DNA from: Acidobacteriaceae bacterium
GTDB taxonomy: Bacteria; Acidobacteriota; Terriglobia; Terriglobales; Acidobacteriaceae
Assembly (NCBI GenBank): GCA_003170825.1
Contig: PMYL01000050.1
Coordinates: forward strand, 1-44,729
Reading direction: 5' to 3'
Length of the DNA stretch: 44,729 nucleotides
Shown here piece by piece: positions 2,215 to 34,832 of the stretch. The position numbers and the translations under genes were made by a program. Each line of letters begins with the position of its first letter. The first letter of the stretch is position 1. Below the pieces are notes generated by a model, which ran no database searches, had not been told where the DNA came from, and saw only the letters and a program-made list of their open reading frames with translations.

Positions 2215-4677
2215 CTACTGAACTGAGATGCCGTTCACCTCCGCGTTGTCCGTCACCGTGGTGAACACAATCACGATCTGGCCGGAGCCATTGGCGGTCG
2301 CCGTGAACGTCTTGTCGATAGCCTTGAACTCGCCGCCAGCCGCGGCAAAGACATCGAAGTTGGCCAGCACCTGTGTGCCGTTGATGCTGACGTTGAAGAC
2401 GCGTTTTCCGGCCGCTGTCCAATAGAACTCGTCGAAGTACAACACGACCGTATGGTTGGATCCAGCCGTGTAGCCGGGAATTGTGTAGGTGAAGTTGCCG
2501 AACCGCTGGGATTGGTAAACGGCTTCGGGCGCAGGGTTGGTCACGCCGGTGGTGGTGATGGTCGTCGCGGTGCTTGACTCAGTTCCGCCGGCGAAATCTT
2601 CATCGGCGGCGAAGGGGCTTACGGCGAGCCCGCCGGAGTTAATCGCAATCGATGTCGGTGGGGGGCCACCCGACGCAAATGCGAACCAGTTGATGTTCCA
2701 GCCGGCTTTATCCTGGTTAATGGTCAACGTCTGGGTCCCTGCCGGGAGTGTGACGGTGGCCGTTACGTTTACCCATGCCTGGTAACCGCCGGTCGCCGGT
2801 ACATTGACCGAGCCGCTCAGATTGGTTCCCGACGAGTTCGATAGATGGAACGCATCGGTGACTGCAGCGGGAGCGGCTACGCGGAAGGTGACCGTGTAGG
2901 ATCCGGCCGTGGCCACGTTGACGGTGTATTTGAACCACTGTCCGGCAGCCGTCCATCCGAGGTTGTAGCCCCCGCCCGTGTCGGTGGTCACTTCCAAGTC
3001 GACGCCATCGGAGCGGTAGCCGTTACCCGTTCCATTGACCGCAGTAACGTTATAGGCAACCCCTTGGCCGCCGGTGTCATAATTCTCTGCCTGCACCGTG
3101 CCGGGAATGGCTGCGGGAGTGCCGCCGTATGGACCCTCGCCGCTGGCTGCCTGCGTGGTGGCTTGAGCCTGCGCCGAGGCCGCCGATGTGCCGTCCGCGT
3201 CGACCGCTTCAACCTTGTAGTAGTGGGTGGTCGAAGCCGCGAGGCCGGTGTTGGTATAACTGACGCTCGTCACGCCGCTTGCGATCAGGTTGCCTGTGCC
3301 GGGAGTGAATCCGCTGGTGGTGCTGCCGTAAACGCTGTAGGAGCTGATGGTGCAATTAGCCGGAGGGGTAACTGCCGTCCAGTTCAAGCCGATGGCGCTT
3401 GAGGAGACCGCTGCCGCCACTAGCCCGGTTGGCGCCGAAGGAACCGTGGTGCAACTGACGCCGCCTTGCGTGGTTGCCGTCGCGGTGTTGGAAGCAGGCG
3501 ATGTGCCGCCCGAGTCCACCGCCTCAACGGTGTAGGAGTATTGGGTTGAGGCCGCCAATCCTGTGTTGGAGTAAGTTGTTCCGGTAATTCCCGTGGCGAT
3601 CGACGTTCCGCCGCGAAGCACCGTATAGGTGACTCCAGAGGTGGTCGAGGCCGTCCAGCTCAGGTTGATCTGGCTGGATGAAACTGCCGTTGCGGTCAGG
3701 TTCGTGGGCGCTGCGGGCGGCGTGCCCGATGAGGCCGTGTACCAGCGAACGTAGTCCACCAACATCGGCTGCGCCGGACTGGCCAGGCCGCTGGTCGATC
3801 CACCCAGCGTGCCGCCGACCGCCACATTAAAGATCACGAACATGCTTTGATTGAATGGCCAGGTATCTCCCGAGGGAAGGCTGCTGGGGGTAATAGTCAA
3901 GAACGGTGATGATGGGTTATCCACATAGGTCTGCAGCGAGTTCGCCTTCCAAATTAACCCGTATTGATGGAAGGCAGTGTTCCCCGCTTGTCCGCTGGGG
4001 AAAGTAAAACGTCCTCCTACTCCGCTCCCTCCAGTATCTGTCGTGTGAGCCGTAGAAATGTCCCCTGTGGTGCCTTCGCCGTTATCCACTTGCGGGGACC
4101 AGTCCTCCATGATGTCCTCTTCGCCGCAACCGGGCCAGGGAACGGTGGTGATGTCGCTGCCCAGGGTCCACCATGCGGCCCAGAGACCTTGGGTTGTCGT
4201 ATTGGGGAGCTCGATGCTGGCTACGAGTATGCCGTAGGTAAAGTTTTCCTTCCCCTCCGTATTCATGCGGCCCGATAGCCACGCGCCATTTTCATTGATC
4301 GGCCGGATCACCAGGTGACCGCTGCCGTCGATGTAGATCGGGGAGGTGGAAGCGCTGAACGTTGTGGGACACTGGGACGGATTGCCCGCGTATCCCGCAG
4401 GCCCGCAGTAAACTTCCGCCTCGCCGTTGCCCCAGCCGCCTCCTCCGAGGTCAAACTTCCACGTCGTGGTGTTTGGAGAACCCGCAGCGCCGTTGAATTC
4501 GTCGCACCATGTCGGAACGTATGTCGTTGACCCGACCGTAATGTTGGAAACGCCGGTGCAACCGCCAGATGGTTGCGCATAGGCTACAACTGGCAACGAA
4601 GTTAAAGCGAAAATCAGCGGCGCCACAAACAGCGCGGCCACGAAGATTTGTCTCAATTTGCTTGAATAACGTTTCAC
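2215..4677 (-). CDS. Secreted GH16 glucanase-type protein A (GH16-FN3-FN3-CBM6-malectin)
   Basis: Predicted secreted endo-beta-glucanase/laminarinase-type hydrolase, 820 aa. The GTG start at 4677 is chosen because it has GAGAGGA about 6 nt upstream and aligns with the ATG of the sister gene at 7276; an ATG at 4710 in frame has a poorer context. Signal peptide residues 1-34 end ...VAYA/QP. The GH16 domain spans about 40-315 with the catalytic ExDxxE signature as EEDIME (nucleophile Glu186, Asp188, acid/base Glu191). It is followed by FN3 (about 320-404), FN3 (about 410-500), a CBM6/35-like sandwich (about 515-650) and a C-terminal malectin-like domain (about 655-820). It is last of three tandem GH16 genes. 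The 5' half is almost identical in DNA to the gene at 5528-7276, indicating recent duplication or gene conversion. The substrate cannot be read from sequence; beta-1,3- or mixed-linkage glucan is the usual GH16 expectation. Confidence 0.9.
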   Translation of the reverse strand: MKRYSSKLRQIFVAALFVAPLIFALTSLPVVAYAQPSGGCTGVSNITVGSTTYVPTWCDEFNGAAGSPNTTTWKFDLGGGGWGNGEAEVYCGPAGYAGNPSQCPTTFSASTSPIYIDGSGHLVIRPINENGAWLSGRMNTEGKENFTYGILVASIELPNTTTQGLWAAWWTLGSDITTVPWPGCGEEDIMEDWSPQVDNGEGTTGDISTAHTTDTGGSGVGGRFTFPSGQAGNTAFHQYGLIWKANSLQTYVDNPSSPFLTITPSSLPSGDTWPFNQSMFVIFNVAVGGTLGGSTSGLASPAQPMLVDYVRWYTASSGTPPAAPTNLTATAVSSSQINLSWTASTTSGVTYTVLRGGTSIATGITGTTYSNTGLAASTQYSYTVEAVDSGGTSPASNTATATTQGGVSCTTVPSAPTGLVAAAVSSSAIGLNWTAVTPPANCTISSYSVYGSTTSGFTPGTGNLIASGVTSVSYTNTGLAASTTHYYKVEAVDADGTSAASAQAQATTQAASGEGPYGGTPAAIPGTVQAENYDTGGQGVAYNVTAVNGTGNGYRSDGVDLEVTTDTGGGYNLGWTAAGQWFKYTVNVATAGSYTVTFRVAAPAAVTDAFHLSNSSGTNLSGSVNVPATGGYQAWVNVTATVTLPAGTQTLTINQDKAGWNINWFAFASGGPPPTSIAINSGGLAVSPFAADEDFAGGTESSTATTITTTGVTNPAPEAVYQSQRFGNFTYTIPGYTAGSNHTVVLYFDEFYWTAAGKRVFNVSINGTQVLANFDVFAAAGGEFKAIDKTFTATANGSGQIVIVFTTVTDNAEVNGISVQ

Positions 4678-5010
4678 GTAGATCCTCTCAGGGGGGAAAT
4701 AGACTCGCATTTCTGAGCCGGACCCAAACTCTATCCATCGTTTGAACGGCGCGAAACGTTACATTTGTTACCCTGGGGTTTCAGGCGTTGGGAATCGGCC
4801 GCTGGTGCATCCGAATGTTGGACTTAACTGGAACGTTAACGCCAGCCATGTAACCGTTGGAGTTACTCGATTTGTGCGGAATCGACTCGTTTTCGGACAG
4901 TACTCTCAAAAAAACGCGCATGTTAACGCAAGCCGGGCGCCGGAGGTCTGTGAGGATCGCACCCCCAAGGCGGCAGGCCTAAATGCCGCCCTGCAATGGC
5001 GCGATTTCGG
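4678..5010 (-). promoter_or_regulatory. Conserved upstream block of GH16 gene A, ending in a relic terminator
   Basis: About 330 bp of non-coding DNA is shared with 10633-10975 and, with a ~150-bp insert, with 7277-7720. On the minus strand it includes GGTAACAAATGTAACG (direct repeat of GTAAC with a 9-bp period) and GTTAACGTTCCAGTTAAG (direct repeat of GTTAA with a 12-bp period), then the leader with the RBS. Its far end carries a hairpin at 4969-4990 (GGCGGCA/TGCCGCC) that matches the terminator of the regulator gene at 10922-10949, so the block was copied with its former neighbour's terminator. I cannot assign -35/-10 boxes with confidence. From 5010 to 5360 I see nothing recognisable. Confidence 0.6.
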
Positions 5011-5363
5011 CCTTATTGATCCGGCCCGATTGGGTTGTGACGGAGAAGGGCGGCTACAAAGGCAACCGCAGGTCTTCGACTTCGTTTGTTGCGCGGACAT
5101 GAGGATTCCGGCTGTGACGCCCGACAAGGTTCGACCAGATGTGGAATGGAAACTGGTCCAGCGCAGGCTGGTGAACGCCAAAAGATCCCCACCCGCGCAA
5201 AAATAGGCGAATTTGGGAACGTCGGATAGAGTGAAGAACGGCGCGCCACTGGACGAGGCCCTGGTGGACTCTGCACCCGGTGGCTGGCCAAACGGCATCT
5301 CCGGCGCGATCGCCGGTTTGGTGGGTTGCGCCTTGGTGAGCGGGTCTTACGCTTTGCATGTTA

Positions 5364-5395
5364 ATGGGAGGGAACGACTCGTCGTTCCCTCCCAT
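5364..5395 (-). terminator. Relic stem-loop, copy of the 2160-2195 hairpin
   Basis: Inverted repeat ATGGGAGGGAACGAC with its complement and a 2-nt loop, in the same position relative to the relic malectin tail at 5417-5484 as the 2160-2195 hairpin has to gene A. It is part of the duplicated remnant. Confidence 0.6.
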
Positions 5396-5416
5396 AGTCA
5401 ATAGCCGGCTCAATCG

Positions 5417-5484
5417 CTACTGAACTTCAATACCGTTCACCTCCGCGTTGTCCGTCACCGTGGTGAACGTAATCACGATCAGGC
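5417..5484 (-). pseudogene. Fragment of a lost malectin-bearing GH16 gene (last ~21 codons)
   Basis: The minus strand reads LIVITFTTVTDNAEVNGIEVQ and then a TAG stop at 5419-5417. This matches the last residues of GH16 protein A (TTVTDNAEVNGISVQ). The homology to 2140-2285 continues on the 3' side through the stop and the adjoining hairpin and breaks abruptly at the terminator of the next gene at 5480. It is therefore the tail of a fourth copy removed by deletion or recombination. Confidence 0.8.
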
Positions 5485-5510
5485 CGGCGGCACAAAGTGC
5501 CGCCGGCCTG
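5480..5510 (-). terminator. Terminator of GH16 gene B
   Basis: Perfect 14-bp inverted repeat CAGGCCGGCGGCAC with an AAA loop, 18 nt after the stop at 5528. The same hairpin, with a TTT loop on the plus strand, follows GH16 gene C at 7720-7750. Confidence 0.75.
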
Positions 5511-5527
5511 AATGGGTTGGGTTCGTC

Positions 5528-7276
5528 TTACCGGATTTCTAGACCCGCGACCGAAGGTTGGTTATCCGCACCGTCGGTGAAGGCGACCACGATTTGGCCG
5601 CTGCTGTTGGCCGAGGTCGTGAACGTCTTGACCACAGCGATGTATTCTCCTCCGGCTGCGGCATATTGGTCAAAGTTGGTGAGTACACGGGTGCCGTTGA
5701 TGGCCACATTGAACTCACGACTCCCCGCCGCGGTGAAATAGGTCTCGGCGAAGTGAATCAGGACGGTGTGCTGGCTGCCGGCAACCATGCCCGGTATCGT
5801 GTAAGTGAAGACACCGTCCCGCTGGGTCTGATAGACCGCCATGGGCGCAGCATTGGCGCCGGCCGCGGTCGTACTAATGGCGTGCGTGGTAGTAGTTGCA
5901 GCTCCGCCGCCGCTGTAGTCTTCGTCCGCGTGAAAGGAAGCGTCGCCGCCGCCCGAGTTGCTGACCGCCGGACCGTTGAAGTTGATGGCGATGAAGTCCC
6001 CGCCGGAACCGCTTGCCAGCGTGGTGGCTTGGGCTTGCGCCGAGGCCGCTGACGTGCCGTACGAGTCAAGCGCTTCCACTTTGTAGTAGTAGGTCGTCGA
6101 AGCCGTGAGGCCGCTGTTGGAATAGCTGGGGCTGGTCACGCCGCTGGCGATCAGGTTGCCCGTGCCCGGCGTGAATCCGCTGGTGGTGCTGCGGTAGACG
6201 TTGTAGGAGCTGACGGTGCAATTGGCCGGGGGAGCAGGCTCCGACCAGGTTAAATTGATGACGCTGGAGGATTGGGCCGTTGCCGCCAGACTGGTTGGCG
6301 CCGAGGGATCCGCGCTGCAATTTCCCGTGGATGGCGTGTACCAGCGAACGTAGTCCACCGTCATCGGCTGCGCCGGACTGGCCAGGCCGCTGGTCGATCC
6401 ACCGAGGGTGCCACCGACCGCCACATTAAAGATCGCGAACATGCTTTGATTGAATGGCCAGGTATCTCCCGAGGGAAGGCTGCTGGGGGTAATAGTCAAG
6501 AACGGTGATGATGGGTTATCCACATAGGTCTGCAGCGAGTTCGCCTTCCAAATTAACCCGTAGGTATGGAAGGCGGTGTTCCCCGCTTGTCCGCTGGGGA
6601 AAGTAAAACGTCCTCCTACTCCGCCCCCTCCAGTCTTGGTCGTGTGAGCCGTTGAAATGTCCCCTGTGGTACCTTCGCCATTATCAACTTGCGGGGACCA
6701 GTCCTCCATGATGTCCTCTTCGCCGCAACCGGGCCACGGAACGGTGGTGATGTCGCTGCCCAGGGTCCACCATGCGGCCCAGAGACCTTGGGTTGTCGTA
6801 TTGGGGAGCTCGATACTGGCCACGAGTATGCCGTAGGTAAAGTTTTCCTTCCCCTCCGTATTCATGCGGCCTGACAGCCACGCGCCATTTTCATTGATCG
6901 GCCGGATCACCAGATGCCCGCTGCCGTCGATGTAGATCGGGGCGGTGGAAGCGCTGAACGTTGTGGGACACTGGGACGGATTGCCCGCGTATCCCGCAGG
7001 CCCGCAGTAAACTTCCGCCTCGCCGTTGCCCCAGCCGCCTCCTCCGAGGTCAAACTTCCACGTCGTGGTGTTTGGAGAACCCGCGGCGCCGTTGAATTCG
7101 TCGCACCATGTCGGAACGTATGTCGTTGACCCGACCGTAATGTTGGAAACGCCGGTACAACCGCCAGATGGTGCCGCATAGGCAACAACTGGCAACGAAG
7201 TTAAAGCGAAGATCAGCGGCGCCACAAACAGCGCGGCCACAAAGATTTGTCTCAATTTGCTTGAACTGCCTCTCAT
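5528..7276 (-). CDS. Secreted GH16 glucanase-type protein B (GH16-FN3-malectin)
   Basis: The shortest of the three tandem paralogues, 582 aa. ATG at 7276 is chosen because AGAGGA lies about 6 nt upstream; ATGs at 7282 and 7303 are less well placed. It has a signal peptide with a hydrophobic core and a VAYA/AP cleavage site, then a GH16 domain (about 40-315) with EEDIME at Glu186/Asp188/Glu191. One FN3 module follows (about 325-410), then a C-terminal malectin-like domain (about 425-582). The CBM6-like module and second FN3 of protein A are absent. The GH16 and signal-peptide coding DNA is nearly identical to gene A, while the malectin end is closer to gene C, so the three genes look like recombined modules. 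It has its own upstream block and terminator, so it is probably transcribed independently. Confidence 0.9.
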   Translation of the reverse strand: MRGSSSKLRQIFVAALFVAPLIFALTSLPVVAYAAPSGGCTGVSNITVGSTTYVPTWCDEFNGAAGSPNTTTWKFDLGGGGWGNGEAEVYCGPAGYAGNPSQCPTTFSASTAPIYIDGSGHLVIRPINENGAWLSGRMNTEGKENFTYGILVASIELPNTTTQGLWAAWWTLGSDITTVPWPGCGEEDIMEDWSPQVDNGEGTTGDISTAHTTKTGGGGVGGRFTFPSGQAGNTAFHTYGLIWKANSLQTYVDNPSSPFLTITPSSLPSGDTWPFNQSMFAIFNVAVGGTLGGSTSGLASPAQPMTVDYVRWYTPSTGNCSADPSAPTSLAATAQSSSVINLTWSEPAPPANCTVSSYNVYRSTTSGFTPGTGNLIASGVTSPSYSNSGLTASTTYYYKVEALDSYGTSAASAQAQATTLASGSGGDFIAINFNGPAVSNSGGGDASFHADEDYSGGGAATTTTHAISTTAAGANAAPMAVYQTQRDGVFTYTIPGMVAGSQHTVLIHFAETYFTAAGSREFNVAINGTRVLTNFDQYAAAGGEYIAVVKTFTTSANSSGQIVVAFTDGADNQPSVAGLEIR

Positions 7277-7719
7277 GCACATCCTCTTTTTTAGGGGGAA
7301 CAAATAGACTCACTCTTCCGAGCCGGATCAAATCTATCCGCTGTTTGGGCTGCGCGCAACGTTACATTTGTTACCTCGGGGTTTCAGGCGTTGGGAATCG
7401 GCCGCTCCTGCATCCGAATGCGGCATAAAGCGGAGCGTTAATGCCGGCCATGTAACCGTTAGAGCATTTTCATTTCACATATGGACCTTGCATCGGCGTG
7501 CAAGGTGGCTTTTACTTCCATCCCACGGACGAAGCCTGTTCGTGGGGACCCCGTTAAGGAAAAAGCCGCCCGGCTGCATGGTTTCTGTAAGGAGCAGAAG
7601 TGAAAATGCTGTAGGCGGGCTCGATTTGTGCGGAATGGACTCGTTTTCGGACAGCACTCTCAAAAAACGCGCACGGTAGCGCAAGGCGGGTCGCCGGAGG
7701 TTTGTGAAGATCGTACCCT
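7277..7719 (-). promoter_or_regulatory. Upstream block of GH16 gene B, interrupted by an inserted repeat
   Basis: Both ends match the upstream blocks of genes A and C, with the ACGTTACATTTGTTACC part at about 7360-7376 and the CGGACAGCACTCTCAAAAA part at about 7655-7673. The middle (about 7465-7620) is replaced by unrelated DNA carrying a hairpin repeat. One of the GTTAA direct repeats has decayed here (about 7425-7445). Gene B may therefore be regulated differently from A and C. Confidence 0.55.
7470..7620. repeat. Inserted hairpin repeat (CCCA-stem-GGGGACCCC family), copy 1
   Basis: It contains AAGGTGGCTTTTACTTCCA, then CCCACGGACGAA-loop-TTCGTGGGGACCCC (7522-7552), then GGAAAAAGCC. The same order of landmarks is found on the minus strand of 12690-12810 and, in shorter form, twice in tandem at 15198-15280. 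Its absence from the two sister upstream blocks shows that it was inserted here. Confidence 0.7.
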
Positions 7720-7750
7720 CAGGCCGGCGGCACTTTGTGCCGCCGGCCTG
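7720..7750 (-). terminator. Terminator of GH16 gene C
   Basis: Inverted repeat CAGGCCGGCGGCAC / GTGCCGCCGGCCTG with a 3-nt loop, 18 nt past the stop at 7768, identical in stem to the hairpin after gene B. Confidence 0.75.
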
Positions 7751-7767
7751 AGTTGGTTGGGTTCGTC

Positions 7768-10632
7768 TTAGCGGATCTCAAGACCCGCGACTGAAGGTTG
7801 GTTGACTGCGCCGGTGGTGAAGGCGACCACGATTTGGCCGCTGCTGTTGGCCGTGGCCGTGAACGACTTGACCACAGCGATGTATTCTCCTCCGGCTGCG
7901 GCATATTGGTCAAAGTTGGTGAGCACACGGGTGCCGTTGATGGCCACGTTGAACTCACGTTTCGCCGCCGCTGTGAAGTATATCTCGGCGAAGTGAATCA
8001 GGACTGTGTGCTGGCTGTTGGCTACCAAGCCCGGAATCGTGTAGGTGAAGGTTCCGTCACGCTGGGTCTGATACACCGCCATGGGCGCCGCGTTGGCGCC
8101 GGCCGCGGTGGTGCTAATTGCGTGCGTGGTCGGGGTGGCTTTCCCGCCGCCGGTGAAGTCCACATCGGCAACAAAGGGAGCGTCGCCGCCGCCCGAGTTG
8201 CTGACTGCAGGACCTTCAAAGTTGATGGCGATGAAGTCCCCGCTGGCTGCCTGCGTGGTGGCTTGCGCTTGCGCCGAGGCAGGCGATGAGCCGAACGAGT
8301 CAAGCGCTTCGACCTTGTAGTAGTAGGTCGTCGAAGCCGCGAGGCCGCTGTTGGTGTAGCTGAGGCTGGTCACGCCGCTGGCGATCAGGTTGCCCGATCC
8401 CGGCGTGAATCCGCTGGTGGTGCTGCTGTAAACGTTGTAGCCGCTGATGGTGCAGTTAGTCGGTGGAGTCACCGCCGACCAGTTCAAGCCGATGGCGCTG
8501 GAGGACGTGGCCGCCGCCGTCAGCCCGGTTGGCGCTGCGGGAGTCGCGGAGCAACTGGTGCCGGCTTGCGTGGTGGCGCTGGCCTGCGCCGAGGCCGGCG
8601 ATGAGCCGTACGAGTCAAGCGCTTCAATCACGTAGTAGTAGGTGGTCGAAGCCGCGAGGCCGGTGTTGTTGTAGCTCGTGCCGGTCACGCCACTGGCAAT
8701 CAGGTTGCCCGAGCCCGGCGTGAAGCCGCTGGTGGTGCTGCGGTAGACGTTGTAGCCGCTGATGGTGCAGTTGGCCGGGGGGGTATCCGCCGTCCAGGTC
8801 AGACCGATGGCGCTGGAGGAAGAGGCCGTCGCCGTCAACCCGGTTGGCGCCGCGGGATCCGCGGAGCAACTGGCGGCGGTGCTCCGGACTTCAATTCCCA
8901 TGACTACGGGTTGGTTTACGGCGCCGTTGGTGAACGCGATCACGATCTGGCCGCTGCTATTAGCGGTGGCCGTGAACGTCTCGACCAGAGCCGCGTTTTT
9001 CCCGACATGGGCATAAATGTCAAAGTTGGTGAGCACGGCGGTGCCGTTGATGGCCACATTGAACTCACGGCCCCCCGCTGCGCTGAAATAGCTCTCGGCG
9101 AAGTGCAGCAGAACGGTGTACGAACTGCCGGCCGTCAGGCCCGGAATGGTGTAGGTGATGGTTCCGTTCCGCCCGTTCTGATATACCCCCATGGGCGCCG
9201 CATTGGCGCCGGGTTGGGTCAGATTGATAGTGGACGAATTTTTGGCGTTAAGCGCTCCGCCAACGAAGTCTTCGTCCGCGACAAAGGAGTAGTCGCCGCC
9301 GTTCGCGTTGCTTTGCGCCGGACCGCCGGCAGCGATGGCCACGATTTCAGGGCTGGTGACTCCCGGCGCCAGCGTGGTGGCGGTTGCCTGGTTCGAGCCC
9401 GCTGAGTTGCCGAACGCGTCCACCGCTTCAACCACGTAGTAGTAGGTGGTCAAATCGGTGAGGCCGGTGACGGTGTATTCGTTGCTGGTCACGGTGGCGA
9501 GCAGGTTGCTCGACGACGGCGTGAATCCGCTGGTGGTGCTGCCGTAGACGTTGTAGCCAGTGATGGTGCAGTTGGCTGGAGGCAGGGTATCCGCCGTCCA
9601 TACCAAGCCGATGACGCTGGAGGAGGAGGCCGCTGCCGCCAGCGCGGTTGGCACCGCGGGAAGCAAGCTGCAAGTGACTGGCCCGTTTGGCACGTACCAG
9701 CGAACGTAGTCCACCAGCATCGGCTGCGCCGGACTGGCCAGGTTGGTGTCCGATCCACCGAGGGTACCGCCGACCGCCACATTAAAGATCACGAACATGC
9801 TTTGATTGAATGGCCAGGTATCTCCCGCGGGAAGGCTGCTGGGGGTAATAGTCAGGAACGGTGCTGTTGGGTCATCCACATAGGTCTGCAACGAGTTCGC
9901 CGCCCAATTTAACCCGTATTGATGGAAGGCAGTGTTCCCCGCTTCTCCGCTGGGGAACGTATAGCGTCCTCCTACTCCGCTCCCTCCAGTCTTGGTGGTG
10001 TGAGCCGTTGAAATGTCCCCGGTGGTGCCTTCGCCGTTATCAACCTGCGGGGACCAGTCCTCCATGATGTCCTCTTCGCCGCAACCGGGCCAGGGAACGG
10101 TGGTGATGTCGCTGCCCAGAGTCCACCATGCGGCCCAGAGACCTTGGGTTGTCGTATCAGGGAGCTGGATACTGGCCACGAGTATGCCGTAGGTGAAGTT
10201 TTCCTTCCCCTCCGTATTCATGCGGCCTGACAGCCACGCGCCATTTTCATTGATCGGCCGGATCACCAGATGCCCGCTGCCGTCGATGTAGATCGGGGCG
10301 GTGGAAGCGCTGAACGTTGTGGGACACTGGGACGGATTGCCCGCGTATCCCGCAGGCCCGCAGTAAACTTCCGCCTCGCCGTTGCCCCAGCCGCCTCCTC
10401 CGAGGTCAAACTTCCACGTCGTGGTGTTTGGGGAACCTGCGGCGCCGTTGAATTCGTCGCACCATGTCGGAACGTATGTCGTTGACCCGATCACAATGTT
10501 GGCAACGCCGGTGCAACCGCCAGATGGTTGCGCATAGGCAACGGCTGGCCACGAAGTTAAAGCGAAGATCAGCGGCGCCAGGAAAAGCGCGGCCATGAAG
10601 ATTCGTTTCAGTCTGCTTGAATAACGTTTCAC
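7768..10632 (-). CDS. Secreted GH16 glucanase-type protein C (GH16-FN3-malectin-FN3-FN3-malectin)
   Basis: Largest paralogue, 954 aa from the GTG at 10632, which has GAGAGGA just upstream and corresponds to the start of gene A. Signal peptide 1-34 (...VAYA/QP). The GH16 domain is at about 40-315 with EEDIME (Glu186, Asp188, Glu191). Then come FN3 (about 320-415), a first malectin-like domain (about 425-580), two FN3 modules (about 585-675 and 680-775) and a second malectin-like domain (about 785-954). Its GH16 part differs from A and B at more positions than they differ from each other. It lies directly downstream of the malectin-domain regulator. Malectin domains are known as carbohydrate-binding folds; here they probably act as substrate- or wall-binding modules. 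Exact specificity is unknown. Confidence 0.9.
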   Translation of the reverse strand: MKRYSSRLKRIFMAALFLAPLIFALTSWPAVAYAQPSGGCTGVANIVIGSTTYVPTWCDEFNGAAGSPNTTTWKFDLGGGGWGNGEAEVYCGPAGYAGNPSQCPTTFSASTAPIYIDGSGHLVIRPINENGAWLSGRMNTEGKENFTYGILVASIQLPDTTTQGLWAAWWTLGSDITTVPWPGCGEEDIMEDWSPQVDNGEGTTGDISTAHTTKTGGSGVGGRYTFPSGEAGNTAFHQYGLNWAANSLQTYVDDPTAPFLTITPSSLPAGDTWPFNQSMFVIFNVAVGGTLGGSDTNLASPAQPMLVDYVRWYVPNGPVTCSLLPAVPTALAAAASSSSVIGLVWTADTLPPANCTITGYNVYGSTTSGFTPSSSNLLATVTSNEYTVTGLTDLTTYYYVVEAVDAFGNSAGSNQATATTLAPGVTSPEIVAIAAGGPAQSNANGGDYSFVADEDFVGGALNAKNSSTINLTQPGANAAPMGVYQNGRNGTITYTIPGLTAGSSYTVLLHFAESYFSAAGGREFNVAINGTAVLTNFDIYAHVGKNAALVETFTATANSSGQIVIAFTNGAVNQPVVMGIEVRSTAASCSADPAAPTGLTATASSSSAIGLTWTADTPPANCTISGYNVYRSTTSGFTPGSGNLIASGVTGTSYNNTGLAASTTYYYVIEALDSYGSSPASAQASATTQAGTSCSATPAAPTGLTAAATSSSAIGLNWSAVTPPTNCTISGYNVYSSTTSGFTPGSGNLIASGVTSLSYTNSGLAASTTYYYKVEALDSFGSSPASAQAQATTQAASGDFIAINFEGPAVSNSGGGDAPFVADVDFTGGGKATPTTHAISTTAAGANAAPMAVYQTQRDGTFTYTIPGLVANSQHTVLIHFAEIYFTAAAKREFNVAINGTRVLTNFDQYAAAGGEYIAVVKSFTATANSSGQIVVAFTTGAVNQPSVAGLEIR

Positions 10633-10921
10633 GTAGATCCTCTCTGGGGGGGGAATAGACTCGCACTTCTGAGCCGGACCCAAACTCTATCCATCGTTTG
10701 AACGGCGCGAAACGTTACATTTGTTACCTTGGGGTTTCAGGCGTTGGAATCGGCCGCTTGTGCATCCGAATGTTGGACTTAACTGGAACGTTAACACCGG
10801 CCATGTAACCGTTGGAGTTGCTCGATTTGTGCGGAATGGACTCGTTTTCGGACAGCACTCTCAAAAAAAACGCGCACGTTAACGCAAGGCGGGCGCCGGA
10901 GGTCAGTGAGGATCGCATCCT
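10633..10921 (-). promoter_or_regulatory. Upstream block of GH16 gene C
   Basis: Intact version of the block shared with gene A. It keeps both direct-repeat motifs on the minus strand: GTAACAAATGTAAC near 10710-10730 and GTTAACGTTCCAGTTAAG near 10778-10797. It also keeps the GAGAGGA ribosome-binding site before the GTG. It sits between the regulator's terminator and gene C, which is probably the ancestral arrangement. The promoter boxes are not clear. Confidence 0.55.
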
Positions 10922-10949
10922 CAGGGCGGCAGGCCGAAATGCCGCCCTG
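10922..10949 (-). terminator. Terminator-like hairpin after the malectin regulator gene
   Basis: Inverted repeat CAGGGCGGCA / TGCCGCCCTG with an 8-nt loop, about 70 nt downstream of the stop at 11017. A relic of the same hairpin sits at 4969-4990 in front of gene A. Confidence 0.6.
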
Positions 10950-11016
10950 CAATGACGCGATTCCGGCCATATCGATCGGATACCACGGCGAAACCCACCC
11001 TAGCCGCGAAGAATCC

Positions 11017-12585
11017 CTACGGCGTCTCGTCTTCCACCTCGACCGCGTCCACAGTGGCGTAGTTCACGTCCGGCACCAGCGAGATAAGCAACTTGCCCTG
11101 CGCGTTGGGGTGAAGTCCGTGAAAGGTCTTCTTCACAGCGTGGCCGCTTCCGGCTTCCCTGGCAAGGTCTAAATTGCGGAACAGCGCTACCCCGTTGCAC
11201 AGCACATCGAAGACCCGGCTGCCCGGCCCGCCGGTGTTGGAAAACGGAGTGCCCCAATAATCTTCGGCAAAATAGAGAGTCAGCGCATAGGTTCCCTGGT
11301 CCACTGGCACGGCATAGCTGAAATTCCCATAGCGCTCTCCCTCATACAGGCCCGGATCCTCGGCGCCGGCAATGGTTACTTTGGTGGTTGCGAGTTGCCC
11401 TCCAAGGACATATGAATCGGGGGACCACAGATTCCCGGATTTATCCACGACAAAGTTGTTCTGCGCAACCATTCGAATCGGGCGGAGCCGGCGCGGAAGG
11501 CCGGGAATGATTTCAATCGCATTGATCATCGGCATTCCCAGCGTTGCCGTGAAGTCGAGCCGAAGATGGCCGTCCGGCCCAGGGTGAACATCCTTGAACA
11601 CCCGAACATCCGCCGTATTCGCTCCAGCGTCTGAAACAATGTCGAACAGCGCCAGGAGGGGTTTTCCATTCAATAGAACATTGAAGACCCGGCTGTTTTC
11701 CCCGCCTCCCAGTGTGCTGGACCAACCGTATGTAGTCTCGGCAAAATACAGGTGCAATTCATACGTTCCAGGATCGAGGGGAATATTGTAGGAAAACGTT
11801 CCCTGTCTCAGGCTCAGGAAGAGTTGAGGTTCCCGCGTGCGCGCAATCGGCTGATCGTTAAGCTCGACTGCATGGCCTTCCGAAAAATAACGGTCTCCGC
11901 TCCATTCCTTGCCTTCCCGGTCCTTGAACATGGTCTTGGGATAGCCGCAACGAATGCGCACCTCCGGGCCGGAAAGCAAGACGGCTGGTTGCGGCGATGC
12001 GCCGGAAAAGATATGAGCCGGGCGGGCCTGATGCGTATAACCGAGCCAGAAGAGGATCGCCATCATCAGGCAAACGATCGCCGCCAGCCCATACCGGACA
12101 AGGTGCATTCTCGTTGTCTGGGCCGGATCTCCGGCCATTGCCGCAAAGGCCGGTTCCCCGGGTTCAGGCGCGGGCTCTTCTTCCGGCAGCACATGTTCGA
12201 CATGCCGCCTGTCGATAAACCCCGGCAGATAATGTCCAGTGACGACTATGATCTGGATGGTCTGGCTGCTGCCCTCATTGTCGTAAAACTCGCGCAGCTT
12301 TTTCCTCAGGCGATAGAACTCCACCCGTACGATGGAATCGGCAGCCGGGTCGAATGTATGGGGCTGGTGGAAAATATCGACGGCAATAGAATATTCCTTG
12401 ATGCTTTCCGCATCTCCCTCAAAGTATTTTCGACAGATGTATTCGAGCAGGCTGGCGAGCCGCGGATGCTTCCTGAACGTCGGCGAGGCCAGCACGGCGC
12501 TCAATGCCAGGCGCTCCTGGGCCAGGCGCTCCTGAGCCAAGCGCTCGGGCTGAGAAATTGTTCCCTTCGTTGCCATAGGCCGCAT
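11017..12585 (-). CDS. Membrane-anchored regulator-like protein with two extracytoplasmic malectin domains
   Basis: 522 aa. The N-terminal cytoplasmic part (about 25-125) matches the style of a domain common in Acidobacteriota membrane regulators: a helical segment around LLEYICRKYFEG, then IKEYSIAVDIF, FDPAADSIVRVE and RLRKKLREFY. I infer that it binds DNA, by analogy with ToxR/CadC-like regulators. One membrane helix lies at about 163-183 (YGLAAIVCLMMAILFWLGY). The remainder should be outside the cytoplasmic membrane and holds two malectin-like domains (about 205-345 and 360-520), each with the typical GxFSY, YxLxLYFAE and RVFxVxxNG strands. There is no enzyme domain. It sits upstream of, and parallel to, three malectin-bearing GH16 genes, so it may sense glucan or its fragments and control them. 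The N-terminus has a threefold LAQER-type repeat from a 15-bp tandem repeat (12506-12550). The start at 12585 has AGAG just upstream; ATG at 12576 is an alternative. Confidence 0.8.
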   Translation of the reverse strand: MRPMATKGTISQPERLAQERLAQERLALSAVLASPTFRKHPRLASLLEYICRKYFEGDAESIKEYSIAVDIFHQPHTFDPAADSIVRVEFYRLRKKLREFYDNEGSSQTIQIIVVTGHYLPGFIDRRHVEHVLPEEEPAPEPGEPAFAAMAGDPAQTTRMHLVRYGLAAIVCLMMAILFWLGYTHQARPAHIFSGASPQPAVLLSGPEVRIRCGYPKTMFKDREGKEWSGDRYFSEGHAVELNDQPIARTREPQLFLSLRQGTFSYNIPLDPGTYELHLYFAETTYGWSSTLGGGENSRVFNVLLNGKPLLALFDIVSDAGANTADVRVFKDVHPGPDGHLRLDFTATLGMPMINAIEIIPGLPRRLRPIRMVAQNNFVVDKSGNLWSPDSYVLGGQLATTKVTIAGAEDPGLYEGERYGNFSYAVPVDQGTYALTLYFAEDYWGTPFSNTGGPGSRVFDVLCNGVALFRNLDLAREAGSGHAVKKTFHGLHPNAQGKLLISLVPDVNYATVDAVEVEDETP

Positions 12586-12664: not shown

Positions 12665-12843
12665 GACATTTCCCGAGTTGGTGTAGAGGAGGCCACAACC
12701 GCCAAGTGGATTTTTCCTTTCCGGGGTCCCAGCGACTTGGGCGGCCGCCCTTTGGGCGCGGCGAGCGATTTTTGCTCGCTGGGGTGGAAGTAAAATCCAC
12801 CTTTCACTGCTCTTGGCGACTCCACGTGAACTCGGGAAATGCT
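12665..12843. repeat. ~180-bp near-palindromic element (hairpin repeat family, copy 2)
   Basis: Its ends are inverted (CATTTCCCGAGTT at 12667 and AACTCGGGAAATG ending at 12841). Internal segments also pair (GTGGATTTT near 12705 with AAAATCCAC near 12792). The centre holds GCGGCCGCCCTTTGGGCGC and GCGAGCGATTTTTGCTCGC hairpins. On the minus strand it carries the TTTTACTTCCACCCCAGCG ... GGGACCCC signature of this repeat family. No protein is apparent. It may be a MITE-like element or a structured RNA. The flanks (12586-12664 and 12844-12957) hold nothing else I recognise. Confidence 0.65.
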
Positions 12844-19616: not shown

Positions 19617-22592
19617 CTATCTACCAACTCCGGTCATTGGTGCCTTTGCTCCCGAAGTTGGACTCTCAATCAGCGCGATTTCCGCAGCCGTCAAATCGTA
19701 CAGATCATATACCAGCCGGTCAATCTCCGCGTCTGTTGCGTCAATCTGGCGCTGCATAATGGCCTTCTGAGTAGACGACTTTGCGGTCGTATGGTGCTTG
19801 CGTAAGGCCAGCATCGAGTCAACTAATGTTACGATACGGTCGTGCAATGCTTTCTCCACGCCGACCGAAGAATCAATACGGCGGATTGGGAGTTGTTCCA
19901 AAAAAGTCTTGGAGATATTAACGGTAAGCTGAGAACGATTCGTATAACTAAGGATGTAATACCAGTTAAGAAGCCGCGAGTTTAAGAGTCCCAAGATGTA
20001 CTTAAGAGAGTACTGATTCTTCGTCGAGTCTCTGAGTATGGTATTGGTGGAATTAAAAGTATAGAACTGTTGGTCGTCATACCCAACCACGAGTGCGCGC
20101 TCCCCCCCAGCAATTCTCTGGGTTACCAACTTCTCTTGCGCTAAGAAGATTTCCTCATCCCGTGCGCGGTACAGTTTCTTTCGGTCATACAGAATAAACC
20201 GATCTCTAAACGTGACGAGGTACCTGTCTATATCTTTCCCTTCTATCAAAGGCTTATAAGTGCTAGAGAGCTTACGATCGCTAATATAGCTACTCTTGCC
20301 TGGACCAGTTGCGATTCCGCCCGCATGAATCGTGCAGATCTGCCCGAGCCTTACACTTTTAGTGGTCATTTTCTCAGTCACTGCATCTGAAGATGCACTA
20401 CCGTAAAGACTGAATGCGAAACTCGTATTGTCGAGAAAACTTGCCTGTGAAATTCTAACTGTGGTTTTAGGGGAGGCGGCTTTAACTCCCTGCGCCACGT
20501 TAACGAAATGGGTTGAAAGCGCCTCTCCTTTTTCAAGAACCAGGATGACCGTCGAGGCCGTCACGCGCTCGAATACTCCACTGCCAAGGTCGGCAATCAT
20601 CCTCACTGTTGTTGAATCAAGAATATGTTTGCGAATCACATCGTAAACAGTTGCGCGAAGCAGAGTGTTAGGGACTATGTAACCGAATTGGCCACGTTCC
20701 TTCAAAAGCCTGGTCGATTTCAAAATAAAGATAGCGAAGAGATTTATTTTCCCAGATTGTTTTGCCCTTCCAGTCTGAGAACCCACTAATCCTTTCAAAT
20801 ACACATCATCAAGGTATTTTTTCATAGTCGCGGCAAAATCGCCTTCTCGTGTGAAGACCCATGGAGGATTGCCAATGACACAATCGAAGCCCCCGGCCTT
20901 CATCGCGTCCGGGAAGCGTTGCTTCCAGTCGAACGGGTTGACGTGCTTCATCTCTTCGCTATCTACAATCAGCTTACCCATGAAGTAGTCCGGGCCGATG
21001 AGGGAATTACCGCACTTGATGTTGTCTGCCAAGTTGGGGAGGGCGCGGTCGCCGAAGGCAAGCTGGCTCAATGAAAGGCTTTGGTCGGTCTCGCCCTCGA
21101 GCACCTTGAGCAGTAGAGAGAGTTTGGTCACTTCAACGGCTTGGGGGTCAATGTCCACACCGAAGAGATGCGTCGTCAAGATTCGCTTTCTTTCCTCAAT
21201 AGTCAGTCGCCAATAGCCGCTGCGGGGGTCCTTATACACGGCCTTCTTGTAGTTTTCCGGTTTGTGCTCGTTGTACCAACTCAAACAGTGGTCTAGGAAG
21301 CACTGGTATGCGCCCAACAGGAACGATCCGCTTCCACAAGCCATGTCGAGGACGCGAAAAGGTGCCTTGTTTTGGGAACTGGCGAGTTGTGCTGGACTTC
21401 GCCTTTCAATCTGCGGAGCGACAGTTTGCCGGACGATGTAGTCAACGATGGAGGCCGGGGTGTAGTAGACGCCTCTGGCTTTGCGTACTTCGGGTTTCTC
21501 CTCAATCTTGGCCTGATGTCCAGCCGTGAGCCGAATCACTTTGCCCAAGAACCGCTCGTAAACGGTTCCAAGGATTTCGACCGGCATGACGCCAAAGTGA
21601 TAAGGCGAGCCGTGAGCGAAATAGAGGCTTTGCAGAATTGGCTTGAAAACCCTGTCGTCCACCACCAGCTTTGGAGTGATCCGGTCAGGCTCCTCGGATA
21701 CGCTGCCTTCGTTCTGGAAATGGAACAGCCCGGAGTTGTACTTCTGGTCTGCCCGTCGGCACAGATCGCGCATGAAGCGGGAATAAATGTCGGCCCGTTC
21801 GCACAGCTTCAGAAGTTGCTCGTAAGGCTCCAACCCCCGGTCTTCCGCCATGCGAAGGAATACCACACGGTCAATCGTCAGTTGAACGGCGGCGTTCAGG
21901 TCATCCAAAGACAGGCCCTTGTTGCGGAGGGCCATGTTTCCGGCCAGCGCGAGCCGCCAGCCCTCCATTTCCTTCAAAAACTCCACGTCTACTTCGGACG
22001 TGCCGCGCTTTCGCTTGGACGCAGCGTATTGGTCAAATGCCCCGGACCATACGGCTTCGCGCGAAAACACGTCCCATAACTCGCGCCAACGATCGGGGTA
22101 TTCCTCGAAGTGGAAGTGCTGAATACGCGCACGGCTAGCCTTCTCGCTCGGGTGTGGCCGCAGGGTGCAATCGTAAACGCCAAGTTCCTCAAAGTCGGTG
22201 AGAATGGACAACGCGAGTTTGGCGCTCCATCCGTACCGGCGAAGCTGGAAGGCGGGGGCAGGGTCCGCGCCGATGTTTACTCCGCACTTCTTGGCCTCAG
22301 CGTAAAACTTCGGCAGGGAGCCTACGCGAAAGGTGTAATCCGGAGCTTTCTGTTGCCCTTCAACATCCAGACTGTCTTCGGGAACGACCTCCCTATACTG
22401 GGGCGCAGTCATTGCCTTATTGCCGACATCCCAGCCTAGGGCTTCAAAGAATGGGTCTATGAGCGATTGGCGGACGTGGGCTTCCTTGACGCCGGGTGCG
22501 AGAAACGCTTGGCGATTCGTAGTGAAATATCGGCAGAGCTTTGTGACTTCGTCTTTGCCTTGGTCGAACGTCTTTGCCGGAAGTGTGCCCAT
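19617..22592 (-). CDS. Single-chain type IIG restriction-modification enzyme
   Basis: 991 aa that combines nuclease, methyltransferase and specificity parts in one chain. The N-terminal nuclease candidate has PD at 84-85 followed by EAK at 99-101 (PDYTFRVG...FYAEAKK). The gamma-class N6-adenine methyltransferase motifs are VLDMACGSGSFLLG (motif I, about 415) and NPPWVF (motif IV, about 574). The C-terminal 300 residues look like a TaqI/Eco57I-type target-recognition domain with SDRKLSSTYKPLIEGKDI-like and LNWYY features. There is no separate R, M or S gene. Codons in the 3' half are AT-richer than in rph or the neighbouring permease, which suits acquisition by transfer. It is inserted between housekeeping genes. 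The recognition sequence cannot be deduced. Confidence 0.88.
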   Translation of the reverse strand: MGTLPAKTFDQGKDEVTKLCRYFTTNRQAFLAPGVKEAHVRQSLIDPFFEALGWDVGNKAMTAPQYREVVPEDSLDVEGQQKAPDYTFRVGSLPKFYAEAKKCGVNIGADPAPAFQLRRYGWSAKLALSILTDFEELGVYDCTLRPHPSEKASRARIQHFHFEEYPDRWRELWDVFSREAVWSGAFDQYAASKRKRGTSEVDVEFLKEMEGWRLALAGNMALRNKGLSLDDLNAAVQLTIDRVVFLRMAEDRGLEPYEQLLKLCERADIYSRFMRDLCRRADQKYNSGLFHFQNEGSVSEEPDRITPKLVVDDRVFKPILQSLYFAHGSPYHFGVMPVEILGTVYERFLGKVIRLTAGHQAKIEEKPEVRKARGVYYTPASIVDYIVRQTVAPQIERRSPAQLASSQNKAPFRVLDMACGSGSFLLGAYQCFLDHCLSWYNEHKPENYKKAVYKDPRSGYWRLTIEERKRILTTHLFGVDIDPQAVEVTKLSLLLKVLEGETDQSLSLSQLAFGDRALPNLADNIKCGNSLIGPDYFMGKLIVDSEEMKHVNPFDWKQRFPDAMKAGGFDCVIGNPPWVFTREGDFAATMKKYLDDVYLKGLVGSQTGRAKQSGKINLFAIFILKSTRLLKERGQFGYIVPNTLLRATVYDVIRKHILDSTTVRMIADLGSGVFERVTASTVILVLEKGEALSTHFVNVAQGVKAASPKTTVRISQASFLDNTSFAFSLYGSASSDAVTEKMTTKSVRLGQICTIHAGGIATGPGKSSYISDRKLSSTYKPLIEGKDIDRYLVTFRDRFILYDRKKLYRARDEEIFLAQEKLVTQRIAGGERALVVGYDDQQFYTFNSTNTILRDSTKNQYSLKYILGLLNSRLLNWYYILSYTNRSQLTVNISKTFLEQLPIRRIDSSVGVEKALHDRIVTLVDSMLALRKHHTTAKSSTQKAIMQRQIDATDAEIDRLVYDLYDLTAAEIALIESPTSGAKAPMTGVGR

Positions 22593-25814: not shown

Positions 25815-27566
25815 TCATCCTGCCGTAGCGCCCTCGGCCTGGGCGGCGGCTCGTTCGTGATTTAGGGCGAGGAGCCGTGCCAATATCTCTTCTTTTGAAA
25901 GGTTCGACGGCCAGCCGTAAGCGGCAAACACGGCTTCGTCTAGTGTGCGATGGGCATTCGCAAGCCACTCGGGACGCAGGTTGTAAAGGTTGGTCAGCGT
26001 GCGTGTCTTCAACTCCCTCGGCGAAATCCCCGGCGGGTTCAGCCACGCATCCCGCAAACGCACAAGTTCCCGCGCCGCATCGGCGATGGCTTTGACGCGT
26101 GCGTCGTTCTCTTCGGTAGGTTCGCTGTCAGGAGGCCACGGAAATGGGAAAGTCGAGAAAATCGTATCTGAGTTATAACTCGGACGATCCTCGAAAGTGG
26201 AGCCCATTCGCAGTGACCAATCCGTGTGAATTGCGGATTGAAGGACGCCAAGAAAGTAGTCGTCTCTTCTCGCGAAGACGTGAAGACGATGGTCGGGAAT
26301 AACATCCGTTGCCATCCAGGTAAAAAGCCTATATTTTGCAATCTCAGAGGTGACGATGCAACGGTCAAGCGACGAGATTGCTTTTCGCAAGGCCGGTCGT
26401 GTCCGACCAAAGAGCCACCATTCCTTCTTCATTAGAGCATCATCGTTTAGTTCGCGGCGCGGTTTGACCTTTTGTAGAACATATTGGAATGGAAGCTCAT
26501 AGAGCGCAGCCTCTGCCTCAGTAAGACCGGTGAAGTCTATGACCCATCCGTCGCTGGGCCGTCGGAGAATGTCACGGCCGATCAGACGGCGCTTCACAAC
26601 GACAGAATTGCTTTTCCCGTTTGGATTTAGCGGCGCTGTCAACATTTTTCGCGCTACCTCGGCGCTTATGTTAAACAGTCCGCCCTTCATCATGCCAAGA
26701 AAGCAAAGTCTCGCATTTTCTGGCAAGGGCGAGGCATCGACAAAGGAATCACCAGCCGTGAGGTCAGCGTGAATCTTGCCAACAGGATGACCGTTGAGCA
26801 CGTGTTCATTATCACTGCCATCGTCGAATCCGACCATCGACACCCTGACTGCTGCGCCATCCAAAAGCCATGGCCGATCGCTCCAGGCCATGAAGATATT
26901 TGCCGAAGCGACCACTCGATCAAGAACGGAACGATTTGCACCCTGTCTGATCGAGTTTGTCGCAAGCAAGCCCACCCTTTTGACTCTCCGCTCATCTATA
27001 TAGCGTTGCGCCTTTTCATACCAGTAACAGACTAGATCGGCACCACCTGGAACCCTTCCGTCATAAAGAAACCGCAAATCCTCTACATAATGTGGGTGTC
27101 CAGGAGCATTAAGTTCCCGCTTCATCTTCTTATCGCCCAAAAACGGCGGATTCCCAACAATGAAGTCCGCTTTCGGCCACTCAGGCTCGTAAGGCTTGCC
27201 TTCATCGTCATAGCGCAGAATCGCATCCCCATGCTCGATATTCGTGAGCTTTTCAAGAATCGGCTCGCGGTCTTCGCGGATGGCGTGCTCGTGCTTCCAT
27301 TGCAGAAACCCGATCCACACGACAATGGAGGCCAGTTCGTGCGCGTAGAACTCGGTTTCAATGCCGAACAACTGCCTTGGAGAGACAATCTTTGAGACAA
27401 CCAGCGAGATGCCCTGCTCGGAAGCAAAGCGCGTTGCCTCCAGCCACAGGTCCAACATGCGTCTGAGTGCGAGATAGAGAAAGTTGCCGGAACCGCAGGC
27501 CGGATCGAGAACCCGGATAGAAGTTAGCTCCTCGATCCACGCGCCCAACAGCTTTTCTGACGGCAA
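25815..27566 (-). pseudogene. MmeI-like R-M enzyme, C-terminal half (methyltransferase and target recognition)
   Basis: 583 codons in the same frame as the gene that ends at 27585, separated from it by one TAA (27587-27585) and six codons. Motif I is DPACGSGNFLYLAL (about 21-34) and motif IV NPPFLGDKK (about 139), both in the wording typical of MmeI-family (type IIL) enzymes. The target-recognition and C-terminal helical parts follow. No Shine-Dalgarno sequence is seen before the TTG at 27566 or any nearby start, so separate translation is doubtful. Either this is a nonsense-mutated gene, or the halves are expressed by reinitiation or readthrough and assemble. The reading frame itself is intact to a stop at 25815, which argues that any damage is recent. 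Confidence 0.75.
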
Positions 27567-27584: not shown

Positions 27585-28688
27585 TTAGCGGCTGTTGCGC
27601 GCGGCCTCTTCGGCGTGCTCCACCTCTAACGCCTCCAGAACCCGTTGCTTCACGCTCTCCCAGCGCTGCCTGAGTGGGCGAACAAGCACCGGCTCAATCA
27701 GCAACAGAATGTCCTCTTCGCTGGTGTAGTGCGCGCCGATCAGGGAACGGCGCGCCGGGTCCAGCGAACGCTCGAACAATGTGCCGAAGATGGCTGGAGC
27801 AATGTGCGACCAGTCGTAATTCTTCGAGACCTCGTACAGGATGCCCAGATCGGCCTCGTCAAGCAGGATGATCGATGCTGAATCGAAGAGTCCGCCATTG
27901 AAGTATTTGATGGAGTGCTCGCCGAAGATGCCATCCCTCTCGCTCATGGCTTCAAACAGCAGCTTCAGCTTGCGCAGAAACTTCCGGGGCAGAAAACGGT
28001 CGTCGCTTAGGATGAGTTTGCGGAAGAGATGATCGGGTAAAAGTCCAATCGAGTCGGCGAAGAGGCAGAAGAGCAACCGCATCAGGAAGTGCGCGATCTC
28101 AGCGCGGCTGGCCCCCAGGCTGCGCTCTTCCAGTTCCAGACGCTCGGCCAGCTTGCTGAAGAGCTTGGCCGCTTCCTGCGTGACATACGCGTCGGTATGC
28201 TCGGGCCGCAGAACGTTGTAGTCGCCGAAGAGAGCGCGCAGAACCTCAAGGGGAGGAAGCGGGCAGGTCGCGGTCACCTGATTGCGATTTAGGTCGTCCA
28301 GGTTGAAGGCATACACGCGCTTCGAGGTGGCCGTGAAGTTGGTATGTACCTCGAATCGCTCGAAGTCGCACACCACCAGCAGCGGAGGATTCCCCAGGTC
28401 TTCGCGGTAATCGTTGAGTTGCTCGTAGGCTTTTTGAAGGTTCTTGTGCTTGACCTTGTATTCCCACGCGAAGTGGCCGCGGAGCCAGACATCGGCAAAG
28501 CCGGTGCCGCCGCGGGTCTTGTTTACGTGCTTTTCAAAGGCATAGCGTTCTCCCGTGGGATCGCTTTCCGTCGGGTTCTTCTCACCGAGCACTTCGCACA
28601 GGTCGCGAAAGTGCGACTGCGCGGTGGCGCGCTCGGACTGCGAGTTGATCTTCCAACGCTTGACGAAATCTGCGATTGTTAGCGGCAT
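27585..28688 (-). CDS. MmeI-like R-M enzyme, N-terminal half (nuclease and helical spacer)
   Basis: 367 aa. The PD-(D/E)XK nuclease signature is Asp66-X9-Glu76-X-Lys78 (FADVWLRGHFAWEYK), the same spacing as the D-X9-EXK of MmeI. A helical spacer follows (about 150-355), including LLFCLFADSIGLLP and the conserved YTSEEDILLLIEPV that normally leads into the methyltransferase. In intact relatives the chain continues for about 580 more residues; here a single TAA stops it right before motif I. On its own this half would have a nuclease without a methylase. The ATG at 28688 begins MPLTIADFVKRW, the normal N-terminus of the family. Related by function, but not by sequence detail, to the type IIG enzyme at 19617-22592. 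Confidence 0.8.
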   Translation of the reverse strand: MPLTIADFVKRWKINSQSERATAQSHFRDLCEVLGEKNPTESDPTGERYAFEKHVNKTRGGTGFADVWLRGHFAWEYKVKHKNLQKAYEQLNDYREDLGNPPLLVVCDFERFEVHTNFTATSKRVYAFNLDDLNRNQVTATCPLPPLEVLRALFGDYNVLRPEHTDAYVTQEAAKLFSKLAERLELEERSLGASRAEIAHFLMRLLFCLFADSIGLLPDHLFRKLILSDDRFLPRKFLRKLKLLFEAMSERDGIFGEHSIKYFNGGLFDSASIILLDEADLGILYEVSKNYDWSHIAPAIFGTLFERSLDPARRSLIGAHYTSEEDILLLIEPVLVRPLRQRWESVKQRVLEALEVEHAEEAARNSR

Positions 28689-34480: not shown

Positions 34481-34609
34481 AGCCCTCCTGGGACGAGATG
34501 CGGCACCTTCCTTAGGCTGTAAGTATAAGCCAGCAGAAATCCGAGCAGCCGATAACGAGCATGAGCGTCTCACAAGTCGGGGCGGTTGGTGCAACTGGGC
34601 TATGGGTTG

Positions 34610-34832
34610 ACGAGATTTGAGCGCGGCTTGCGCCGCGTACACGATCTTTCAAATTGGGATGGGTGGGTTTATGCGGGGGTTGAAACCCCCGCCTCCCTCC
34701 GGATCGCGTTTATCCGCAACTTGTGAAACCACGGCGTACCGGACCGTACCGTTCAAAGCGGCGAGAAGCAACCGCAGGTCCTTCGACTACGGTCGCCGCG
34801 GCGACCTGCGCTCAGGATGACAGCTTTTGTGG
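34610..34832. repeat. Dispersed ~200-bp intergenic repeat, copy 3 (inverted)
   Basis: Opposite orientation to copies 1 and 2: GCGGCTTGCGCCGCGTACAC, GATCTTTCAAATTGGGATGG, GCGGGGGTTGAAACCCCCGC, TCCGGATCGCG, then GGTCCTTCGACTACGG and CTCAGGATGACAG. It lies directly upstream of the SIR2 gene and probably displaces its original promoter region. Confidence 0.8.

Follow-up and report, generated by a model that had tools for sequence, protein, structure and literature searches.

Regulators of the ToxR type, as described in PMC5430869 and PMC5936718, have an N-terminal DNA-binding domain, one membrane helix and a C-terminal external sensor, with no phosphoacceptor. Here we analyse a stretch of 44,729 nucleotides from an Acidobacteriaceae bacterium (contig C36, positions 1 to 44729, of a 3.49 Mb genome in 59 contigs; hereafter the window), in which the gene for a malectin-bearing membrane protein, P0001, is followed by three genes for secreted glycoside hydrolases of family 16 (GH16). 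P0001 resembles ToxR and CadC in having an N-terminal domain (N-domain), a single predicted membrane helix and a C-terminal sensor predicted to be external, and no phosphoacceptor domain was matched in it. It differs from them in that the N-domain is without PF00486, the sensor is a tandem of malectin domains and the likely targets are glucanases. Additionally, the model of the N-domain begins with helices at a place where CadC has strands beta1-beta4. We propose, with a probability of about 0.7, that P0001 senses external beta-1,3-glucan fragments and acts directly on the glucanase genes beside it, with no kinase relay in between.

Three other kinds of system invite comparison. SusR and the hybrid two-component systems of Bacteroidota exert membrane-spanning control of polysaccharide-degrading genes and are similar to the P0001 system in this respect; unlike them, P0001 matched neither a histidine kinase nor a receiver nor an AraC domain in a Pfam scan. 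Plant receptors of the CrRLK1L group (FERONIA, ANXUR) carry their sensor at the N-terminus, whereas that of P0001 is C-terminal and is accompanied by a predicted DNA-binding domain, with no kinase match. The enzymes of the window are like GH16 laminarinases with malectin modules in having PF00722 and the ExDxxE motif, the first copy being nearest to beta-1,3-glucanases; they are unlike them in forming three tandem copies with matching candidate operators and an adjoining malectin regulator. Acidobacteriota are widespread in soils, and to our knowledge no regulator that is itself a glycan receptor has been described in the phylum. Among the titles listed in searches of the open-access literature, most subscription journals being outside its scope, none named a malectin-type membrane regulator: malectin with Acidobacteria gave nothing, and malectin with transcriptional regulator gave papers on plant subjects, judged by title. 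The ToxR-like layout is already known; what is new, within the literature searched, is the sensor, the DNA-binding domain unlisted in Pfam, the candidate operator and the proximity to glucanase genes. The regulator is made up as follows.

11017..12585, minus strand: membrane regulator P0001, 522 aa (open reading frame, Pfam and structure model)
12211..12552, minus strand: N-domain, covering residues 12-125, with a predicted winged-helix fold of OmpR type (VIA-align; predicted local distance difference test score, pLDDT, of the model 89.7)
12034..12108, minus strand: the one transmembrane helix predicted, at about residues 160-184 (hydrophobicity and model)
11503..11973, minus strand: malectin domain 1, residues about 205-361 (Pfam and fold comparison)
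11026..11487, minus strand: malectin domain 2, residues about 367-520 (Pfam and fold comparison)

An earlier note on this DNA, made from the letters alone, had described P0001 as a one-pass protein with two external malectin-like domains. PF11721 does match two stretches of the ectodomain (E 4.7e-39; score 134.4 bits, the cut-off being 23) and is the only Pfam family above its cut-off, with no kinase or receiver up to E 0.1. There is a single hydrophobic stretch: 19-residue windows scoring above 1.6 begin at residues 160-167 only, and the modelled helix spans residues 159-184. P0001 is therefore predicted to be bitopic, with one helix between an inner part and an outward malectin part. The positions that align with the ERY and aromatic-pair residues of animal malectin, which we take to be ligand contacts, are retained in malectin domain 2.

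The same note had proposed a DNA-binding N-terminus, for which a winged helix was to be sought by structure prediction. The model (pLDDT 89.7) does resemble OmpR-type domains, and the top rows in VIA-align are the DNA-binding domains of SaeR, GlnR, ArlR, PhoB and AdeR, but the scores are modest and the N-domain has no Pfam match at all. Foldseek with the N-domain alone gave matches at chance level, and a sequence profile search of the PDB gave nothing under E 0.1, so the OmpR likeness rests on VIA-align. The N-domain is predicted to be a winged helix and to lie inside the cell, where it likely binds paired TAAC repeats. In a phylum-wide search it reached at least 15 copies in some genomes.

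The three GH16 genes follow the regulator on the same strand, as the earlier note had read them, and all three products match both PF00722 (27.3-28 bits, with the cut-off at 22) and PF11721. Their likely starts were set by eye from the context that they have in common.

7768..10632, minus strand: GH16 gene 1 (GH16a), secreted, laminarinase-type, with fn3 repeats and two malectin domains; likely GTG start at 10632
5528..7276, minus strand: GH16 gene 2, secreted, with fn3 and malectin; likely ATG start at 7276
2215..4677, minus strand: GH16 gene 3, secreted, with fn3, CBM6 and malectin; likely GTG start at 4677

The full open reading frames are 7768-10683, 5528-7303 and 2215-4710, all on the minus strand. 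The ExDxxE motif is EEDIME in each (computed for copy 1 and seen by eye in copies 2 and 3). In structure comparison, which among the window enzymes covered the first copy, its nearest solved structures were beta-1,3-glucanases or laminarinases. The genes are tandem copies with a common upstream block, in which each has a direct repeat.

10713..10727, minus strand: candidate operator before GH16 gene 1, GTAACAAATGTAACG (repeat search and upstream alignment)
7360..7374, minus strand: candidate operator before GH16 gene 2 (repeat search and upstream alignment)
4757..4771, minus strand: candidate operator before GH16 gene 3 (repeat search and upstream alignment)
Sequence of the TAAC-repeat candidate site: GGTAACAAATGTAACGTTT

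The repeat at 10713-10727 lies within the block 10633-10921, which had been singled out earlier. The form GGTAAC-ANA-TGTAACG is seen before the GH16 genes of both the window and a genome of the same family taken to be Granulicella mallensis (hereafter G. mallensis), and a run of TAAC repeats is present at another paired locus, L042. When the upstream region of GH16a was aligned with that of G. mallensis, the best local match was the repeat block, with 26 of 29 bases identical and none of 1000 shuffles as good. The same block was best against L042 (0/1000 shuffles), and the match between G. mallensis and L042 was weaker (3/1000). The GH16 proteins behind the repeat are about 32% identical over their first 700 residues (75% between L042 and L097), so the site is kept although the enzyme differs. 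The distance from the end of the repeat to the start codon is 80 bp in GH16a and in G. mallensis, and 83 and 79 bp in copies 2 and 3. A -10-like box, judged by eye, lies 24-25 bp downstream of the repeat in the window, G. mallensis and L042.

A protein search with P0001 gave 1497 matches among 7997 candidates scored, and a relative with an E value no higher than 1e-40 is present in 54 of the 298 genomes of the order; scanning the genome contigs with an alignment of the regulators brought up only 5 loci. We assembled 78 regulator loci, made up of 4 from the same genome, 4 from other contigs and 70 of 72 fetched from further genomes (L143 and L146 were broken or cut, with no N-domain frame, and were dropped). 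Malectin was confirmed by hidden Markov model in all 78 regulators; that of G. mallensis is 517 aa. A separate malectin protein is encoded in the fetched flank at ten loci (window, L042, L043, L077, L097, L116, L120, L125, L131 and L145, in the last about 4 kb from the regulator), a lower bound, as many fetched stretches end at contig ends. An eleventh pair is L030, on contig C15 of the same genome, where the divergent neighbour is 68% identical to the L125 partner and the contig ends ahead of any malectin domain. The pairing, whose absence from related genomes the earlier note had named as grounds for giving up its idea, therefore recurs. On a tree of 76 regulators (L139 and L148 were left out) the ten paired loci need five changes, and in the clade of the window, G. 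mallensis, an Acidobacteriales metagenome-assembled genome and Edaphobacter aggregans all four are paired (support 100/99).

P0001 relatives in separate clades are thus paired with malectin-bearing GH16, GH55 or GH81 enzymes. The partners are GH16 at the window, L042, L097, L077, L125 and L131. They are GH55 at L097, L125 and L145 by direct match to 4PEW, and at L131 and L030 through 57-79% identity to the proteins of those three loci. L120 has GH81 and GH12, whereas the L043 partner and the single L116 protein scanned could be assigned to no catalytic family. The structure 4PEW is SacteLam55A, an exo-beta-1,3-glucosidase (PMC10637969). Families linked to beta-1,3-glucan (GH16, GH55 or GH81) are therefore present at 9 of the 11 paired loci, bearing in mind that GH16 is wider than beta-1,3-glucan. 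Neighbouring open reading frames were grouped by single linkage, with one representative of each cluster annotated. A protein with CarboxypepD_reg and an outer-membrane barrel (TonB-receptor-like) is encoded within 7 kb at 35 of the 78 loci, a divergent TPR protein at 19 and a member of a GH3-type cluster at 7. Such barrels are common (at least 47-60 places per genome in five genomes), so the 35 loci alone say little; the divergent placement of 28 of the 43 TonB-receptor-like genes, upstream of the regulator, is the stronger sign.

The repeat follows the regulator family. Of 77 regulators, 38 have TAAC-N5-8-TAAC in the 400 bp ahead of the gene (L124, with less than 200 bp upstream, was left out), in comparison with a mean of 2.0 and a maximum of 7 loci in 200 shuffles; these, like those of the upstream alignment and 5-mer tests, were first-order resamplings. 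Without the seven regulator loci read beforehand the count is 33 of 70. Control regions were taken upstream of mechanically called open reading frames of at least 200 aa, not of curated genes, and had the pair in 49 of 633 cases when regions beside the regulator were included and in 18 of 529 when more than 700 bp from it. The Fisher value of 4e-22 is too small, the loci being related. Counted by neighbourhood, regulators preceded by the TAAC pair make up 8 of 11 at paired loci, 17 of 19 with TPR and 12 of 35 with TonB-type neighbours. In a count for which no word was chosen beforehand GTAAC was the top 5-mer directly repeated at 9-12 bp upstream of the malectin regulators (17/77) and was outside the top 12 repeated words in controls; in this count the reading ran outwards from the gene for regulators and inwards for controls. 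The distances between TAAC words have one peak at 9-12 bp and another at 32-33 bp, a further TAAC being three turns away in 23 of 77 loci, G. mallensis included. In 19 loci there is also a more distant TAGC pair, usually at 128-133 bp and in most cases near a TPR gene. L106, L130, L104 and related TPR-divergent loci often have a TAAC, a TAAC pair 32-33 bp on and a TAGC pair about 130 bp further.

Upstream of 39 regulators that have the N-domain without malectin, hand-picked from the phylum-wide listing, the TAAC pair was found in only two, which ties the repeat to the malectin branch. Before these genes (L174-L213) TTCAC and AACGT are each repeated in 5 of 39, hinting that other branches may have operators of their own.

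From these data we infer that the TAAC repeat is the operator of the P0001 family. OmpR-type domains use direct repeats about one turn apart, and PhoB-type activators sit just upstream of the -10 box. The candidate repeat lies in just such a position with respect to the -10-like box, so the effect would be activation. By analogy with CadC-type receptors, P0001 would form a dimer, and the direction of control is read on the same analogy. Secreted enzymes would break beta-1,3-glucan down, and the fragments would bind the malectin pair beyond the inner membrane. As in CadC, the ligand would then alter either the state of the dimer or its occupancy of the DNA, and the receptor pair would hold on to the TAAC repeats and bring polymerase to the promoters of the glucanase genes. 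The earlier note had suggested that sensor and enzymes bind the same sugar and that the membrane protein reports it directly to the promoter. This is supported as far as computation reaches, with the family-tracking repeat and the fact that the partners are of the beta-1,3-glucanase kind as further support; the components and their co-occurrence are what the data show, and the signalling itself is a step that we infer.

Several observations weigh against this proposal. There is no TAAC pair upstream of the window's own regulator, half of the regulators are likewise without one, and it is missing upstream of 23 of the 35 regulators with TonB-type neighbours. Pairing is not general, 67 of 78 regulators having no malectin enzyme in the fetched stretch, and the fold assignment of the N-domain is modest. 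A GH55-GH16 malectin pair on contig C49 has no TAAC pair in the stretch read and no adjoining regulator. The exact pattern GTAACN4-7GTAACG occurs at 6 places in the window's genome, of which the GH16 promoters account for three, and the reversed control also at 6. In G. mallensis it occurs at 9 places, one being the gap between regulator and GH16 gene, against 19 for the reversed control, and the 15 places in G107, G138 and the genomes of L042 and L043 all lie away from the paired locus. Our confidence is slightly lowered by the finding that, in the window's genome, this long pattern in its exact form is no rarer than its control.

The ligand is the least certain step. It is likely that the tandem-malectin ectodomain binds beta-1,3-glucan fragments, but P0001 could be a direct membrane regulator with a different ligand, such as another glycan, a cell-wall fragment or, as for FERONIA and RALF, a peptide. 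The closest folds to the ectodomain are plant ANXUR and FERONIA, one FERONIA entry being a complex with RALF23; the animal malectin structure 2k46 is a complex with nigerose, an alpha-glucoside; and most regulators have no malectin glucanase in reach, while TonB-like or TPR genes are present at 35 and 19 loci. The partner families at nine of the eleven paired loci point the other way, and we regard another ligand as a tentative possibility. It is unlikely that the repeat is the site of another regulator or a promoter element and that the N-domain does not bind DNA. The weak fold statistics, the regulators with no repeat nearby and the indirect nature of the evidence for binding would fit such an explanation, but the repeat tracks the regulator family over both other locus genes and N-domain genes without malectin, and its spacing is that used by OmpR-type domains.

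Duplication and shuffling might also have brought regulator and enzymes together by coincidence, with no regulation involved, given that the genome has 29 places with malectin matches and that the GH16 genes are tandem copies. However, the pairing recurs across several genera, in four clades of the regulator and with differing enzyme families, five of the ten paired loci are divergent gene pairs, and the promoter block is conserved. For the 17 regulators of seven genomes, random placement predicts about 0.45 paired in comparison with 8 seen, a guide only, as these genomes were picked for holding pairs. We consider coincidence very improbable.

If P0001 is a direct glucan receptor, one locus offers a testable set of regulator, operator and ligand and points to a DNA-binding domain missing from Pfam. 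It would also be a plant-style tandem-malectin receptor in bacteria that reaches the promoter in one step, and a ready part for a glucan biosensor. A wider view, for and against which we see the odds as even, is that Acidobacteriota have a phylum-wide and expanded class of membrane receptors that are their own transcription factors, in which a single helix links one DNA-binding N-domain to exchangeable ectodomains, with branch-specific words (GTAAC, TTAAC and GTAGC for malectin receptors, others for other ectodomains). The malectin branch, FERONIA-like in its sensor, would read beta-1,3-glucan and directly drive genes for glucanases or TonB-type uptake, and the class would be the counterpart of the SusR, hybrid two-component and extracytoplasmic function (ECF) systems of Bacteroidota.

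Some minor features of the locus and its genome were also seen. Elements resembling miniature inverted-repeat transposable elements, with inverted-repeat ends of 22 and 17 nt, lie at 12667-12841, upstream of P0001, and at 7460-7613, upstream of GH16 gene 2; the former may have displaced a regulator-side operator. On contig C49 (L034, 3921-8675) a GH55-like and a GH16 gene, both with malectin, stand side by side, and the GH16 product is 74% identical to that of the window. Elsewhere in the window, 40013-42202 is a 729-aa open reading frame that, under the thresholds applied, matches nothing in Pfam or PADLOC. A type IIG restriction-methyltransferase resembling Eco57I is encoded at 19617-22592, and an MmeI-type type IIG restriction-modification protein, apparently split, in two adjoining open reading frames at 25815-27566 and 27585-28688. 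Finally, 32366-34642 encodes a protein with SIR2-like and SEC-C parts, of which the SIR2 part matches the PDC-S25, Dsr1 and ThsA defence models.
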